A stretch of 64,000 nt of DNA from Buchnera aphidicola (Astegopteryx bambusae) (GTDB taxonomy: Bacteria > Pseudomonadota > Gammaproteobacteria > Enterobacterales > Enterobacteriaceae): contig NZ_CP134985.1 in the NCBI RefSeq assembly GCF_039365365.1, positions 62,001 to 126,000 on the forward strand, written 5' to 3'. Position numbers and translations under genes: made by a program. Of this stretch, positions 32,218 to 53,194 are shown one piece after another (the first letter of the stretch is position 1; every line of letters begins with the position of its first letter). The notes under the pieces were generated by a model. The model did not search any database. It was not told the DNA's origin and saw only the letters and a list, made by a program, of their open reading frames with translations.

Positions 32218-32265
32218 GTACCAGTCTTATTTGTTTATTTGTGACTGGTACAATTTTATTTTTTA
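32218..32265 (+). terminator. Terminator after aroH
   Basis: Perfect nine-bp stem (GTACCAGTC, 32218-32226, with GACTGGTAC, 32243-32251) and a 16-base loop, followed by a T-rich run (AATTTTATTTTTT). It starts 11 bases after the aroH stop and separates it from thrS. Confidence 0.8.
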
Positions 32266-32357: not shown

Positions 32358-34244
32358 ATGTTTAAAAATAATTTTTTTATAAATAACATTTTAAAAAAAA
32401 TAAAATTTAAAAAAGGTGAATTTTGTATTGCCTATAAAATAAATAATAAATTGTATGATACAAAGACTTTTTTAAAAAAAAATTCAGATGTATCAGTAAT
32501 AACTAATTTTGATAAAAAAGAGTTCATTAAAATAATAAAAAATTCTTGTATACAACTTTTGTGTTATGCAGTTAAAAAACTTTGGCCTGAAGTTAAATCA
32601 GCTTGTTCAGGATTTACAAAAAATGGATTTTATTGTGATTTTGAAATGAAAAAAAATTTAAATAAAAAAAAATTTAGCTTAATAACAAAAGAAATGAATA
32701 ATTTATATTCTAAAAGTTATTCGATCACTTCTAAAAAATTTTCTGTAAATAGATTAATTAAAATATTTTCTTCTTATAAAGAATATTATCAAGTTTATAT
32801 TTTAAAAAAACTTTTTATTAATAAAAATAAATTAATAAAAATTTATTTTCACAATAATTATTTAATTTTTGTTCCTGGTATACAAATTTATAATATAACA
32901 CTTTGTAAAAATTTTTTTTTAAATAAATTTTCTGGTGTATATTGGAAAGGCAAAAAAAAAAATAAAGTTTTACAAAGAATACATGTAACAATTTTTTCTA
33001 ATAAACAAGAATTATTAAGTCATATTGAAAGAAATAAAAGTTTATGTAAAATAGATCATACAAAATTGGGTGTAAAATTAGATTTGTATCATATTAATAA
33101 GCATTCTCCTGGTATGATATTTTGGCATAAAAATGGTTTTGTAATTTTTGAATTGCTAAAAAATTTTATTAGGAAATGTTTAAAAAAATATAATTATGAA
33201 GAAGTTATTACACCTATAATGATGAATGAAATTATATGGAAAAATAGTGGACATTTTAGTAGTTACAGAAAACATATTTTTAATACAGTTTCTGAAAATA
33301 AAAATTATTGTATAAAACCTATGAATTGTCCTGGTCATATTCAAATATTTAATAAACATATACGATCTTATAAAGATTTGCCTATTAGAATATCAGAATT
33401 TGGGATATGTCATAGAAATGAATATTCAGGATCTTTACATGGTTTGATGAGAATCAGATCTTTTACTCAAGATGATGCTCATATTTTTTGTAGAAAGGAT
33501 CAAATTGAAGAAGAAATAAACAATTGTATTGATATAATAATTAATATATATAAAACTTTTAATTTTAAAATTATAAAAATATATTTTTCTACTAGACCTA
33601 AAAAAAGTATAGGAGATAGTGATACTTGGAATTTTGCTCAAAATATTTTAAATAAAATTTTGTATAATAAAAATATTAAATTTAATTTTAAACATGGAGA
33701 AGGTGCTTTTTATGGACCTAAAATAGAATTCGTTTTAGAAGATCGTTTAGGAAGAAATTGGCAATGTGGTACTATTCAGTTAGATTTTTATATTGCTAAA
33801 CTTTTAAAAGTTTTTTATATTAATAAATATAATATAAAAAAAAATCCTATTATAATACATAGAGCAATTTTAGGTTCTATTGAAAGGTTTATAGGTATTT
33901 TGTTGGAAGAATACAATGGTATTTTTCCATTATGGTTAGCACCTATACAAATAGTTATAATTAGTGTATCTAAAAAACATATATTATATGTAAAGAATAT
34001 TTTTAATAAATTAATAAAAAATGATTTTCGAGTAATATATGATATTGAAAATGTTACAATAAATTATAAGATTAGAAAATATTCTTCTATTAAAATACCT
34101 TATATTTTAATATGTGGTGATAGAGAATTAAAAGAATCGAATATAACTGTTAGAAATGTAAAAGGTAAGATAAACAAAAAAATTTCTATAAAGAAATTTA
34201 TAAAAAAAATTTTTATAGAATTACACAATTATAAATTTTTTTAA
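32358..34244 (+). CDS. thrS: Threonyl-tRNA synthetase with inactivated editing domain
   Basis: Class II synthetase for threonine. The catalytic zinc residues are kept (Cys324 in MNCPGH, His375 in DDAHIF, and the later IHRAILGS His). The TGS and editing domains are open but eroded. The four E. coli editing residues His73, His77, Cys182 and His186 correspond here to Asn62, Gln66, Val172 and Gln176. Removal of mischarged Ser-tRNA-Thr is therefore unlikely. From the ATG at 32358 the protein is 628 residues (642 in E. coli). Alignment suggests the first TGS strand lies about ten codons upstream, where only ATT and ATA codons are available. A GTG at 32241 lies inside the aroH terminator and is rejected. 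Confidence 0.9.
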   Translation: MFKNNFFINNILKKIKFKKGEFCIAYKINNKLYDTKTFLKKNSDVSVITNFDKKEFIKIIKNSCIQLLCYAVKKLWPEVKSACSGFTKNGFYCDFEMKKNLNKKKFSLITKEMNNLYSKSYSITSKKFSVNRLIKIFSSYKEYYQVYILKKLFINKNKLIKIYFHNNYLIFVPGIQIYNITLCKNFFLNKFSGVYWKGKKKNKVLQRIHVTIFSNKQELLSHIERNKSLCKIDHTKLGVKLDLYHINKHSPGMIFWHKNGFVIFELLKNFIRKCLKKYNYEEVITPIMMNEIIWKNSGHFSSYRKHIFNTVSENKNYCIKPMNCPGHIQIFNKHIRSYKDLPIRISEFGICHRNEYSGSLHGLMRIRSFTQDDAHIFCRKDQIEEEINNCIDIIINIYKTFNFKIIKIYFSTRPKKSIGDSDTWNFAQNILNKILYNKNIKFNFKHGEGAFYGPKIEFVLEDRLGRNWQCGTIQLDFYIAKLLKVFYINKYNIKKNPIIIHRAILGSIERFIGILLEEYNGIFPLWLAPIQIVIISVSKKHILYVKNIFNKLIKNDFRVIYDIENVTINYKIRKYSSIKIPYILICGDRELKESNITVRNVKGKINKKISIKKFIKKIFIELHNYKFF

Positions 34245-36532: not shown

Positions 36533-38929
36533 ATGAAAATTAGTAAAAATTGGATAATGGAATGGACAAATTTTAAATTAGGTTTTAAAAAAATTTGTAA
36601 CAGTTTAATTAAATTAGGTATCGAAATAGATATTTTAAAAAAAGTTCCTATTTGTCTTAGTAAATATATATTTATAGGAAAAGTAATTTTAAAAAAAAAA
36701 ATTTTTTTAGATAATGATTTTTTTTTTTTATATTCTATATTAATACGAGAAAATAAAATATTAAAAATATTTTCAAAATATAGTTGTAACATTGGCGAAA
36801 AGTTTATTGTTTCTATTTCTAAAAATATATTTTCTGAACAAATTTTTTTTTATATAAAAAAATATCATCATAAAAAATCTAAATGTTTTTTTTGCGCGCC
36901 ATTTTCTATAGGAATATCAAATATAATAGAAAAACCATTGAAATTATCTAATTCTAGTAATATAAATGCTAGTATTAAAAATTATATAAAAATTTATGAT
37001 AATATAATAAAATTGAATATTCCACATAATAGATTAAATGAATTAAATATAATTGGTATTTCTAGAGAAATATGTGCTTTTAATAAAATAGAGTTTTGTA
37101 ATTTATATAAAAATTATATAAAAAAAAAATATAAAAAAAATAAAATAGAGGTATTTTTAGAAAAAGATATAAAGAATTATTGTTATTTAGGAAGATGTTT
37201 TAATAATTTAAATGTTAACGTAAAAACTCCATTCTGGATTATTAATAAATTAAACATGAATGGTATAAAAAGTAAAGATATAATTTCTAATATAATAAAT
37301 TATGTTTTTATAGAAACTGGTGAAACTTTTCATTTTTTTAATAAAAATTCTTATAATAATAAGATTTTTGTAAAGATATTAAAAAATTCTAGTAAAATAT
37401 ATTTATTTAATAAAAATTTTTTTTTAAAAAAAAACAATATAGTAATTTGTAATGAAAAAAAAATATTAATTTTTGGAAATAATTTTCAAACTAAATATGT
37501 TAATTTTTCTTCGGATACGAAAAATATATTTTTAGGTTCTTTGTTTTTAAAAAATAATAGATTTAATAATTATAATAAAAATAATGTTAACAGTAATAAA
37601 ATTAATTATTTTAGCTACAGTAATAATTTTAATATGCAATTATTTTCATTAAATTATATTACTAAAATAATTTTAAGAATTTGTGGTGGCTCAGTAAATA
37701 ATATTTTAAAAATTAAAGATTTTGATAAGTACATGCAGAAAAAAATTATTTTGAATAAAAAAAAAATAAAAAAAATAATAGGATATTATATAGATGATCA
37801 CATTCTTGAAGAAAAATTAAAAATTTTAGGTTATAAATTTTTTAAAAAAGATAATATGTGGAAAGTTTTAGTACCATATTGGAGAGATGATATATTTATA
37901 GAAGAAGATATAATATCAGATATAATTAGAATTTATGATGTAAATAAAATATTTGTATGTCCGCCTTCAGAAAAATTTAATATTACTTGTGAAAATTTCT
38001 ATAAAAATAATTTTTTTAAAGAAATAAAAAATTTTTTAATTTGCAAAGGATATAATGAAGTAATAAATTATAGTTTTATTGATGAAAATAATCAAAAAAA
38101 TTTTTCTAATAATGAGAAATATATAAAAATAAAAAATCCAATTTCTAAAAATATGTCAGTTATGAGAACTTCATTACTTCCAGGATTATTTAAAAATTTT
38201 ATATATAATAACAATAGGCAAAATAGTTGTATTAAGATTTTTGAATTAGGTAAATGTTATTTTAAAAATGAAAATAATATTTTAGGAGTTAATGAAAAAA
38301 CATTTTTATCAGGATTATCATATGGTAGTTTTGATAATATATTTTTTGATACTAAAGAAAAAAAAATTGACTTTTATGATTTGAAGGGAGACGTAGAACA
38401 TATTTTAGAAATTTCTAGATCTATTTCTAATGTAAAGTTTTTTAATAAGAGTTTTTCTGGTTTTGACAACATAATTAGTTCTTCAATATATTTAGACAAA
38501 AAATATATAGGTAAAATTGGTAAGTTAGATCAAAAAATTTTAAAAAAAAATAATTATAAAAAAAATTATGATATTTTTTTGTTTGAACTGTGTTTAGAAA
38601 ATTTTTATAAAAAAGAAATATTATATGTAAAAAAAATATCAGAATATCCTAGTATAAAAAGAGACATTTCTATTATAGTTTTAAATAATGTAAAATGTTT
38701 TGATATAATATCGTTTTGTAAAAAAATATTTTCTAAAAATTTAATAGATATATATATTTTTGATTTTTATTTTGGCGTAAACATACCTTTTGGAAAAAAA
38801 AGTATTTCTATAAGATTAATTTTTCAAAGTTTAAAAAAAACGTTAAAAGACGTTTCTATTGATAAAATTATTTTTAAGAATATGGTTTTATTGGAAAAAA
38901 AATTTAATGCTGTTATAAAAAGAAAATAA
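36533..38929 (+). CDS. pheT: Phenylalanyl-tRNA synthetase beta subunit with degraded editing site
   Basis: Beta subunit, 798 residues (795 in E. coli). The C-terminal catalytic-like and anticodon-binding parts are recognisable (FYDLKGDVEHIL, KRDISIIV). In the B3/B4 editing region the loop AMGGIFGG of E. coli is replaced by LIFGNNFQT (312-320), the Glu334 position is Gly335, and the HTDASHRYERG stretch that carries Thr354 is replaced by an Asn/Lys/Ser-rich sequence; only His267 remains. The OB-fold B1 region has also lost its HPNADKL motif. Hydrolysis of mischarged Tyr-tRNA-Phe is probably lost. ihfA, which follows pheT in enterics, is missing. Confidence 0.9.
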   Translation: MKISKNWIMEWTNFKLGFKKICNSLIKLGIEIDILKKVPICLSKYIFIGKVILKKKIFLDNDFFFLYSILIRENKILKIFSKYSCNIGEKFIVSISKNIFSEQIFFYIKKYHHKKSKCFFCAPFSIGISNIIEKPLKLSNSSNINASIKNYIKIYDNIIKLNIPHNRLNELNIIGISREICAFNKIEFCNLYKNYIKKKYKKNKIEVFLEKDIKNYCYLGRCFNNLNVNVKTPFWIINKLNMNGIKSKDIISNIINYVFIETGETFHFFNKNSYNNKIFVKILKNSSKIYLFNKNFFLKKNNIVICNEKKILIFGNNFQTKYVNFSSDTKNIFLGSLFLKNNRFNNYNKNNVNSNKINYFSYSNNFNMQLFSLNYITKIILRICGGSVNNILKIKDFDKYMQKKIILNKKKIKKIIGYYIDDHILEEKLKILGYKFFKKDNMWKVLVPYWRDDIFIEEDIISDIIRIYDVNKIFVCPPSEKFNITCENFYKNNFFKEIKNFLICKGYNEVINYSFIDENNQKNFSNNEKYIKIKNPISKNMSVMRTSLLPGLFKNFIYNNNRQNSCIKIFELGKCYFKNENNILGVNEKTFLSGLSYGSFDNIFFDTKEKKIDFYDLKGDVEHILEISRSISNVKFFNKSFSGFDNIISSSIYLDKKYIGKIGKLDQKILKKNNYKKNYDIFLFELCLENFYKKEILYVKKISEYPSIKRDISIIVLNNVKCFDIISFCKKIFSKNLIDIYIFDFYFGVNIPFGKKSISIRLIFQSLKKTLKDVSIDKIIFKNMVLLEKKFNAVIKRK

Positions 38930-50401: not shown

Positions 50402-53194
50402 TTATAAAAAAATTCTTGTTTCTCCTTTTTCATATATATTTTTTAAGCATCTATTGCATAAGTTGTTATCTTTAGATTTTTTTTTATTGTTTTTTTTGAA
50501 AAAATTCCAACATCTTTCACACTTTTTTCCTAAAACTTTTTTTACATATATTTTAATTTTTTTTGATGTATTTTTTTTATGATTTTTTTTTATTTTTACT
50601 TTTGATGATATAAACATGAATTTTATTTCTTTTTTCATTATTTTTATTTTTTTTTCTATATCTTTACTTATATATATTTTTAAATAAGATTCTAAAGAAT
50701 TTTTTATAATTTTTTTTCTTATAGATTTTTCTATTTCTTTGTTTACTTTATTTTTTATTAATATTAGATTTTCCCAGTCATATAAATTTAAAATTTCATT
50801 TTTTGAAAAACTTTTTAAATTTTTAAACCATGTTTTTGTAAATATAAAATCATTTTTTTTTTTTTTTATAAAGCTCCATGATTCTTCTGATGTAAATGGT
50901 AAAATTGGAGATATCCATCTTATTATTGTGTTTAATATATTATATAAAACAGTTTGACAACTTTTTCTTTCTAAACTTTTTTTTGGTAATGTATATAATC
51001 TATCTTTTACTATGTCTAAATAAAATGAACCTAATTCTATATTAAAAAATTTTATAATAATATTTATTATTTTATGAAATTTATATTTTTCATAAAAATA
51101 TATTATTTTATCTTGTATTATTTTTGTTTTTCCTATTATCCATTTATCTATTAATATTAAATTTTTATATTTTATTTTTTCTAAATTTTCTTGAAAGTCA
51201 TATAAATTAGATAACATAAATCGAATTGTATTTCTTATTTTTCTATATATATCTGTAATATTTTTTATAACATTTTGTGAAATTACTATTTCTTTAGAAT
51301 AATCAGTAGAAGCAACCCATAATCTAAGTATATCTGCGCCAAAATTTTTTATTATTTTACTAGGTTTTATTATATTTCCCTTAGATTTTGACATTTTTTT
51401 TCCATTTTTATCTACTACAAATCCGTGCGCTATTATATTTTTATACGGAGAAATTCTTTTAGTAGCTACTGATATTATTATTGAAGACATAAACCATCCT
51501 CTGTATTGATCAGATCCTTCTATATATAGGTCTGCTTGTTTTTTACTTGATATATTCTTATATATAGATTTTACATCTATGGATCCAGAATCAAACCATA
51601 CATCTAATACATCATTACTTTTAAAAAATTTGTTTTCTTCTTCTTTTAAAAATTTTTTTTTATTTATATTGTCCCAATATTCATTTCCTAATTTATTGAT
51701 ATTTTTATAAATTTTTTTTATAAAATTTTTTGTGTTTTTGTGCATTTTATTAGTTTTTTTATTTACAAAAATTGTTATTGGTACTCCCCAATGTCTTTGT
51801 CTAGAAATACACCAATCAGGTCTATTTTTTAACATTGTAATCATTTTTTTTTGCCCCCATTTAGGATACCAATTAACTTTTTTTATTTCTTTAATTATAT
51901 TTTTTTTTAAATTGTTTTTATTTAAATTTATAAACCACTGAGGTCTAGAAATAAAAATGGTAGGATAATTGTGTCTCCAACAAAATGGATATTTATGTAA
52001 AATAATTTTTTCACACATTATTTTATTTTTTTTTTTTAATATTTTTATAATTTTTTTATTTGAATCAAACACAAAAGTATTGTCTAATAATTTGTGAACA
52101 TTTTTTTTATAAAAACCAGTTTTTTTTATTAAATTTAATAAATTTATATTATATTTTTTGCTTATTTCAAAATCTTCTTGACCGTGATCAGGAGCTATAT
52201 GTACTAATCCAGTTCCTAATTTTAAATTAACATGTTTTGATAAAATTATTGGAATATTCTTTTTCATAAAAGGATGGCAACAATGTGTAAATTCTAATTT
52301 TTTTCCTAATACACTATTAATAATTTTATATTTTGATATATTAAATTCTTTTAATACAGATATAGTTATTTTTTTTGCTATTATTAAATTAAATTTTTTA
52401 GTTTCTATAAAATTATAATTTATATTAGAATTTACAGATATAGCTTGATTTGATGGTAAACTCCATGGAGTAGTTGTCCATATAGGTGCGTAAATTTTTT
52501 TTTTATTTTTTTTTTTCAAAATTTTTTTTATATTTTCATTTTTTATTATTTTAAACAAAACAAAAATTGTATTACAGTTTTTGGTTTTATGTTTTAATTC
52601 TGCTTCAGCTAATGAAGATTGGCACTTTATACACCAATGTATTGGTTTATATGCAGAATATACATATTCTTTTTCAATTATATTTTTTAATTTTTTTATT
52701 ACATTTACTTGACTATCTATGTTCATAGTATTATATGAATTATGCCAATCAGAAAAAATTCCTAATCTTATAAATTCTTTTTTTTGTTTTTCTATTTGTT
52801 TTAATACATATTTTTTACACTTTTTTTTAAAAATTTTTTTTGATATTTTTTCTATATTTTGTTTATTTTTTTCTTCAATTTTGTGTTCTATTGGAAGCCC
52901 ATGACAATCCCAAGTAGGTGTATATAAAGTATTAAATCCAGATAAGTTTTTAGATTTTATTATTATATCTTTTAAAATTTTGTTTAAAGCGTGCCCTATA
53001 TGTATATTTCCATTTGCATATGGAGGTCCATCTTGTAGTATAAATTTTTTTTTGTTTATATTATTTTTTTTAATTATTTCTTGTATTTTTATTTTGTCCC
53101 ATTTTTTTAATATTTTTGGTTCTTTTTGTAATAAATTTGCTCTCATAGAGAATTTTGTTTTAGGTAAGTTTAATGTTTTTTTATAATTTTTCAT
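50402..53194 (-). CDS. ileS: Isoleucyl-tRNA synthetase
   Basis: Class I synthetase, 930 residues (938 in E. coli). HIGH is at 65-68 and KMSKS in KKMSKSKGN. The CP1 editing domain keeps its threonine-rich WTTTPW and the HIAPDHGQEDF loop with the His and Asp used for proofreading valine. The C-terminal zinc finger (CERC and CNRC) is intact. Unlike ThrRS and PheRS in the same window, this editing domain looks functional. Confidence 0.96.
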   Translation of the reverse strand: MKNYKKTLNLPKTKFSMRANLLQKEPKILKKWDKIKIQEIIKKNNINKKKFILQDGPPYANGNIHIGHALNKILKDIIIKSKNLSGFNTLYTPTWDCHGLPIEHKIEEKNKQNIEKISKKIFKKKCKKYVLKQIEKQKKEFIRLGIFSDWHNSYNTMNIDSQVNVIKKLKNIIEKEYVYSAYKPIHWCIKCQSSLAEAELKHKTKNCNTIFVLFKIIKNENIKKILKKKNKKKIYAPIWTTTPWSLPSNQAISVNSNINYNFIETKKFNLIIAKKITISVLKEFNISKYKIINSVLGKKLEFTHCCHPFMKKNIPIILSKHVNLKLGTGLVHIAPDHGQEDFEISKKYNINLLNLIKKTGFYKKNVHKLLDNTFVFDSNKKIIKILKKKNKIMCEKIILHKYPFCWRHNYPTIFISRPQWFINLNKNNLKKNIIKEIKKVNWYPKWGQKKMITMLKNRPDWCISRQRHWGVPITIFVNKKTNKMHKNTKNFIKKIYKNINKLGNEYWDNINKKKFLKEEENKFFKSNDVLDVWFDSGSIDVKSIYKNISSKKQADLYIEGSDQYRGWFMSSIIISVATKRISPYKNIIAHGFVVDKNGKKMSKSKGNIIKPSKIIKNFGADILRLWVASTDYSKEIVISQNVIKNITDIYRKIRNTIRFMLSNLYDFQENLEKIKYKNLILIDKWIIGKTKIIQDKIIYFYEKYKFHKIINIIIKFFNIELGSFYLDIVKDRLYTLPKKSLERKSCQTVLYNILNTIIRWISPILPFTSEESWSFIKKKKNDFIFTKTWFKNLKSFSKNEILNLYDWENLILIKNKVNKEIEKSIRKKIIKNSLESYLKIYISKDIEKKIKIMKKEIKFMFISSKVKIKKNHKKNTSKKIKIYVKKVLGKKCERCWNFFKKNNKKKSKDNNLCNRCLKNIYEKGETRIFL

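Follow-up and report, generated by a model that had tools for sequence, protein, structure and literature searches.

The thrS locus and its genome context

The window, a 64,000-nucleotide stretch of the chromosome of Buchnera aphidicola (Astegopteryx bambusae), carries the gene for threonyl-tRNA synthetase (ThrRS), thrS, which was the one ThrRS match in a genome-wide search of this genome (G000). The gene is preceded by aroH and followed by frames for infC-rpmI-rplT-pheS-pheT (aroH and pheT assigned by profile, the others by eye), and its frame stays open upstream of the ATG as far as a GTG at 32241. A phmmer comparison with E. coli ThrRS (1qf6) gave an E-value of 2.9e-186. Besides the 411,372-bp chromosome, the genome comprises contigs of 7,058 and 2,199 bp; the former is 99.8% identical over its length to a leu plasmid of Buchnera aphidicola from Astegopteryx bambusae, and the latter (L091) had no match in a search of plasmid records. 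The gene and its N-terminal domains are as follows:

32358..34244, + strand: thrS, threonyl-tRNA synthetase, 628 aa from the ATG at 32358 (TIGR00418, 600 bits against a cut-off of 383.65)
32358..32504, + strand: N1 (TGS) domain, a poorly conserved remnant (alignment; pairwise identity)
32505..32999, + strand: N2 editing domain of the SAD type, with an open frame and without its catalytic residues (aligned to E. coli residues 62-224)

The original prediction placed the feature at 32358..32890, an interval that stops within N2; by alignment to E. coli residue 224, the domain reaches about 32999. In keeping with its statement that the rest of the editing domain is still translated, the N2 frame is open. 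The SAD profile PF07973 scores the protein at 16.3 bits, under its 24-bit cut-off, and an AlphaFold2 model of ThrRS alone had a mean pLDDT of 36.3; no conclusion rests on that model.

Replacement of the editing residues

The central claim, that all four editing residues have been lost, was confirmed by phmmer against 1qf6 and by MAFFT, in columns that are gap-free in the window ThrRS. Three further replacements in N2, at Asp180, Lys156 and Tyr104, had not been reported earlier, and the three zinc ligands of the catalytic domain are intact, as had been proposed:

32541..32543, + strand: Asn62 (AAT) for E. coli His73 (phmmer and MAFFT)
32553..32555, + strand: Gln66 (CAA) for E. coli His77 (phmmer and MAFFT)
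32634..32636, + strand: Cys93 for E. coli Tyr104 (alignment)
32790..32792, + strand: Gln145 for E. coli Lys156 (alignment)
32865..32867, + strand: Ile170 (ATT) for E. coli Asp180 (alignment)
32871..32873, + strand: Val172 (GTT) for E. coli Cys182 (phmmer and MAFFT)
32883..32885, + strand: Gln176 (CAA) for E. coli His186 (phmmer and MAFFT)
33327..33329, + strand: Cys324, zinc ligand Cys334 retained (alignment)
33480..33482, + strand: His375, zinc ligand His385 retained (alignment)
33858..33860, + strand: His501, zinc ligand His511 retained (alignment)

Thus, where editing-competent N2 domains have HxxxH and CxxxH motifs, the window ThrRS has N, Q, V and Q.

Spread of the loss among reduced genomes

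The census aligned a single ThrRS per genome for 153 genomes, of which 149 came from a family search and four more belong to the window's genus; genome sizes were rounded, and the second ThrRS copy of one genome (G138) was set aside. Genomes of 2 Mb or more keep all four editing residues in 95 of 97 cases, those of 1-2 Mb in 9 of 13, and those below 1 Mb in 4 of 43. One of the two large exceptions has Gln77; the other (G033) is 49% complete with broken frames, and its ThrRS was scored as not intact. Among the 43 smallest genomes, 14 retain the N2 domain with none of the four residues (in one case through a gap at 182), and 12 have a ThrRS frame of only 409-447 aa that is without N1 and N2 (L045-L056). 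Chance or misalignment as the source of the pattern was ruled out, because all six sampled genomes of the window's genus have lost all four residues and 95 of the 97 large family genomes keep them.

Taking the aroH-thrS gene order as a marker of Buchnera, we obtained 18 genomes in 13 genera, hereafter Buchnera-like. The alignment across Buchnera strains that the original prediction had called for found His73 or His186 in none of the 18, and in one of them (G124) the entire ThrRS N-terminus is gone. A strain-specific loss was ruled out, as the editing residues are partly or wholly lost across the 13 genera. In E. coli ThrRS, kcat reportedly falls 7000-fold with H73A, 70-fold with H186A and more than 500-fold with C182A/S (PMC4041444, citing earlier work). 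Given the effect of H73A alone, post-transfer editing is probably dead throughout the Buchnera-like group; for the window enzyme, we infer the size of the effect from these mutants, because its own residues are Asn, Gln and Val, unlike theirs.

An early, single loss of ThrRS editing in the Buchnera-like group is the simplest reading. Parallel losses, including of H73 and H186 within the group, are possible because the deep nodes of the ThrRS tree are weak. A sequence search for pieces of N2 near the 12 truncated ThrRS genes gave weak, scattered matches in five and none in six. There are 13 weak matches in G120. The strongest three are directly upstream of the truncated frame (best E 0.003, 21% identity) and may be a decayed remnant.

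Constraint on the N2 domain

Within the window's genus, N1 has a mean pairwise identity of 0.43 (E. coli 33-61, leaving out G003), compared with 0.63 in N2, 0.64 in the anticodon-binding domain and 0.80 in the catalytic domain. N1 is broken in two of the six genomes, by stops in G003 and a frameshift in G001 (L006 and L007, upstream of about 1700; by eye), and the N2 frame is open in all six. In N2, amino-acid identity would reach at most 0.41 under a simple simulation of neutral change matched on third positions, against the 0.63 observed, and about seven stops would be expected per lineage, against none in six lineages; furthermore, p2 is lower than p3. The N2 domain of this genus is still under constraint. 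Part of this lack of stops would be seen in any case, since a stop codon ahead of an essential domain would be lethal unless translation restarts.

These observations bear on whether the pattern is pure neutral decay, in which N2 would be debris awaiting deletion and the order in which editors are lost would be luck. The broken N1 domains, the 12 small genomes without N2, and the variation of LeuRS and ProRS states between Buchnera-like genera (see below) are all in keeping with decay, as are G120, G124 and G092, in which read-through matches extend into a stop-containing N2, as if recently decayed. However, the identity of N2 and its p2 below p3 indicate constraint in the window's genus, and the AlaRS, IleRS and ValRS motifs are retained in 18 of 18 Buchnera-like genomes (bar one ValRS Asp) in which the ThrRS and PheRS sites are damaged. 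We therefore regard purely neutral decay as quite unlikely.

A constrained N2 would also be expected if the domain had kept or regained some hydrolysis through a remodelled site built on a recurrent Gln77/Gln186 pair. Of the 12 Buchnera-like genera with N2, 8 have Gln at position 186 and 7 have it at 77, and replacement of His by Tyr or Asn accounts for none of 16 replacements at 186 compared with 16 of 25 at 73 (39 genomes, kinship ignored). Such a site would have to do without Cys182, Asp180 and Lys156, which are likewise gone from the window ThrRS; moreover, column 182 ranks lowest in N2 conservation, columns 77 and 186 are middling (0.55 and 0.64), and 12 genomes dispense with the domain altogether. 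Remodelled hydrolysis is, in our judgement, highly unlikely. Most likely, N2 would have been retained for a role in the structure of ThrRS and in binding the tRNA acceptor. Deleting the N-terminal editing domain is reported to reduce tRNA charging (PMC4267643, citing earlier work), which would give a reason to retain it.

Selective loss among editing synthetases

Six further editing synthetases were compared across 26 genomes selected from the searched set (18 Buchnera-like, 5 other reduced and 3 large). For LeuRS, PheRS, IleRS, ValRS and AlaRS, the residue numbers and roles are taken as background and were checked by alignment alone. Three of the genes concerned in the window's genome are:

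36533..38929, + strand: pheT, PheRS beta (TIGR00472), about 2.3 kb downstream of thrS
50402..53194, - strand: ileS, IleRS (TIGR00392), with T241-T243, N250, H333 and D342 retained
Genome 180616-182184 (L078:616-2184), - strand: ProRS, INS editing domain unrecognisable (profile and alignment)

Three enzymes retain their motifs throughout the Buchnera-like genomes: AlaRS has H564, H568, C666 and H670 in 18 of 18; IleRS has T241-T243, H333 and D342 in 18 of 18, with N250 in 11; and ValRS has TTRPET in all 18, with the Asp of TP(A/G)HD in 17. In PheRS beta, by contrast, E334 is missing from 17 of 18, and H265 is missing from the remaining one. In the window's pheT the editing site is degenerate, with E334 replaced by G, G315 by N, G318 by Q and A356 by K, and H265 retained. 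T252 or D345 is missing from LeuRS in 13 of 18 genomes, and five genomes retain both, one of them from the window's genus; the LeuRS of the window's own genome keeps T252 and has Glu for D345. ProRS frames are shortened to 402-436 aa in four of 18 (G131, G023, G124 and G114), and in some Buchnera-like genera the INS domain is near the references (retention in editing domain/rest 0.47/0.62 in G049 and 0.47/0.66 in G077). Within the window's genus, editing by both LeuRS and ProRS would be lost, one LeuRS being doubtful.

As a measure of retention, we used positions invariant in two to three large reference genomes and compared the editing domain with the rest of each protein; G121 was omitted from the ValRS and IleRS references because its ValRS aligned badly. 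In the window's genome, editing domain and rest gave 0.42/0.59 for ThrRS (ratio 0.71), 0.30/0.51 for LeuRS (0.58), 0.26/0.33 for PheT (0.79) and 0.11/0.50 for ProRS (0.22), versus 0.45/0.41 for AlaRS (1.10), 0.44/0.47 for IleRS (0.93) and 0.49/0.49 for ValRS (1.00). For ThrRS with N2, the ratio is 0.61-0.77. It fails to give a clean split in every genome, because in other Buchnera-like genomes IleRS goes down to 0.75 (G124) and PheT up to 0.95 (G023). Judged by sequence, ThrRS, PheRS and ProRS editing is decayed in the window's genome and the AlaRS, IleRS and ValRS motifs are retained; LeuRS editing has probably decayed as well.

Fidelity after a probable loss of post-transfer editing

The original prediction held that this enzyme cannot clear Ser-tRNA-Thr, and the residue losses, read with the published mutant kinetics (PMC4041444), support a loss of post-transfer editing. 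It also held that a trans-editing protein encoded elsewhere would overturn the claim. Profile searches of the genome found no free-standing protein of the PF07973 (SAD), PF04073 (INS/YbaK), PF02580 (DTD) or PF08915 (ThrRS-ed) families, and ThrRS is single-copy; PF07973 matched only AlaRS and, below its cut-off, the window ThrRS, and the other three profiles matched nothing. In 14 control genomes, the same searches gave SAD matches in 14, INS/YbaK in 12, DTD in 10 and ThrRS-ed in 5, above cut-off in 14, 12, 8 and 3, respectively. Clearance in trans by a host protein or an unrecognised symbiont protein would call for an editor beyond the reach of this four-family search, such as the PheRS-related CtdA family or a diverged or host-supplied protein. 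Families of free-standing deacylases akin to AlaRS, ThrRS, ProRS and PheRS do exist (PMC11415595), but with none of the four families present in free-standing form, we consider such clearance most improbable.

A different way to limit serine misincorporation, despite the loss of post-transfer editing, would be for the synthetic site to hold fidelity, through sharper rejection of serine or pre-transfer editing. Among 26 positions taken to represent the synthetic pocket region, 24 match E. coli and the remaining two vary among the other compared sequences too, which argues against a sharpened site. Editing-domain loss can accompany raised specificity (PMC11415595), and the yeast mitochondrial ThrRS, which has no N2 domain, does perform pre-transfer editing. 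That enzyme still hydrolyses Ser-AMP, although too little to prevent mischarging in vitro, and its pre-transfer editing is called insufficient (PMC4267643). In the Anabaena enzyme T2, discrimination is not improved (PMC4787780). We find compensation at the synthetic site fairly unlikely.

It is very likely, instead, that the sole, housekeeping ThrRS of Buchnera has a normal synthetic site and no post-transfer proofreading, a reading that takes in the selective shedding described above and the causes proposed below. Serine that passes the synthetic site would then stay on tRNA-Thr and enter proteins at Thr codons, with an error rate of the order of one in several hundred, scaled by [Ser]/[Thr]. 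Two Anabaena ThrRSs show synthetic-site preferences for Thr of 314 and 436 (PMC4787780), from which we estimate, by analogy, that about 0.2-0.3% of Thr codons would receive Ser if the two amino acids were equally concentrated. Both tRNA-Thr genes were found in the genome; by eye, they have G1-C72 and C2-G71. The genome also has thrA, thrB and thrC, and the presence of these genes makes a high Thr pool possible. High Ser at Thr codons harms E. coli, in which Cys-to-Ala abolishes proofreading only partially (PMC6918089); tolerance would therefore be limited to low error rates. PMC4787780 makes the case that selection acts against a ThrRS that misacylates when it serves as the housekeeping enzyme.

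Possible causes of the pattern

What is of more interest than the locus itself is the loss across the Buchnera-like group together with the selective retention of AlaRS, IleRS and ValRS editing. The editing domains of AlaRS and ThrRS are homologous and both clear serine, so one genome holds two homologous domains for the same wrong amino acid, with the ThrRS site lost and the AlaRS site retained. Selection on the ThrRS site may have been relaxed because low-level Thr-to-Ser errors would be cheap, because purging of mild defects would be inefficient in small symbiont populations, and perhaps because the cell, as a supplier of Thr to its host, is rich in Thr. The AlaRS site, on the other hand, would have been retained because Ala-to-Ser errors are costly. 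In E. coli, growth of the ThrRS C182A mutant equals that of wild type and growth of the AlaRS C666A mutant does not (PMC6918089); by analogy, the ranking of these mutants would be the ranking that evolution has fixed in the window's genome.

It is tempting to speculate further that Buchnera offers a natural ranking of affordable translation errors, with ThrRS and PheRS editing lost in all Buchnera-like genomes sampled, LeuRS and ProRS editing lost in many, and AlaRS, IleRS and ValRS editing retained under selection, and that the dead ThrRS domain has been reused, for acceptor binding or stability, with conserved residues of its own. We put this forward tentatively, as possible rather than probable.

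Comparison with known systems

Melnikov et al. reportedly described, in PNAS in 2018, editing loss in host-restricted organisms, tied to small genome size, a phenomenon of the same general kind as that of the window ThrRS. Degenerate editing is frequent in small-genome, host-restricted bacteria (PMC7373986, PMC10057733, PMC4014445, PMC11020763, PMC11415595), many of which have lost it in many synthetases (PMC10057733). Editing loss in such bacteria is, therefore, already known in print, and the Buchnera ThrRS is a further case. Among the top results of the literature searches there was no paper titled on Buchnera ThrRS editing, and we make no claim that the case is unpublished; nor did we meet the contrast between AlaRS and ThrRS within one genome in the part of the literature surveyed.

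The window ThrRS, as a sole ThrRS with replaced editing residues in a genome where the four free-standing editor families are absent, resembles the host-restricted, editing-deficient type. The original prediction had cited Mycoplasma and microsporidian ThrRS as precedents; the former stands, whereas the microsporidian case in the review PMC7373986 is LeuRS. Mycoplasma has degenerate editing in ThrRS, LeuRS and PheRS (Li et al. 2011, as reported in PMC7373986, PMC10057733 and PMC4014445), and it shares with Buchnera a host-restricted lifestyle, a reduced genome, editing residues replaced or deleted and, reportedly, no YbaK, ProX or AlaX. It belongs, however, to an unrelated lineage, and PMC7373986 knows of no Mycoplasma that has lost at least three editors; in the Buchnera genome of the window, editing by ThrRS and by PheRS appears dead, and that by LeuRS probably is. 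ProRS was left out of this comparison because Mollicute ProRS is also without a cis-editing domain (PMC4014445).

Two other kinds of ThrRS fit less well. The yeast mitochondrial enzyme (PMC4267643) is likewise a functional ThrRS without post-transfer editing, but its N2 is wholly absent; this minimalist type resembles the 12 endosymbiont-size genomes with frames of 409-447 aa, and the window ThrRS, in which N2 is there and open, does not fit it. Anabaena T2 (PMC4787780) is, like the window ThrRS, full-length with a degenerate N2, but it retains catalytic motifs and residual editing and is aided by T1; in the window's genome the catalytic motifs are gone and a second ThrRS is absent, so this low-zinc duplicate type does not fit either.

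A second ThrRS does occur in another genome of the census, G138, at L355:8241-10229 (+ strand; 662 aa), with R, L, F and L at the editing residues. It adjoins genes for a zinc-uptake ABC transporter and delta-aminolevulinate dehydratase, surroundings reminiscent of the low-zinc ThrRS duplicate in PMC4787780.
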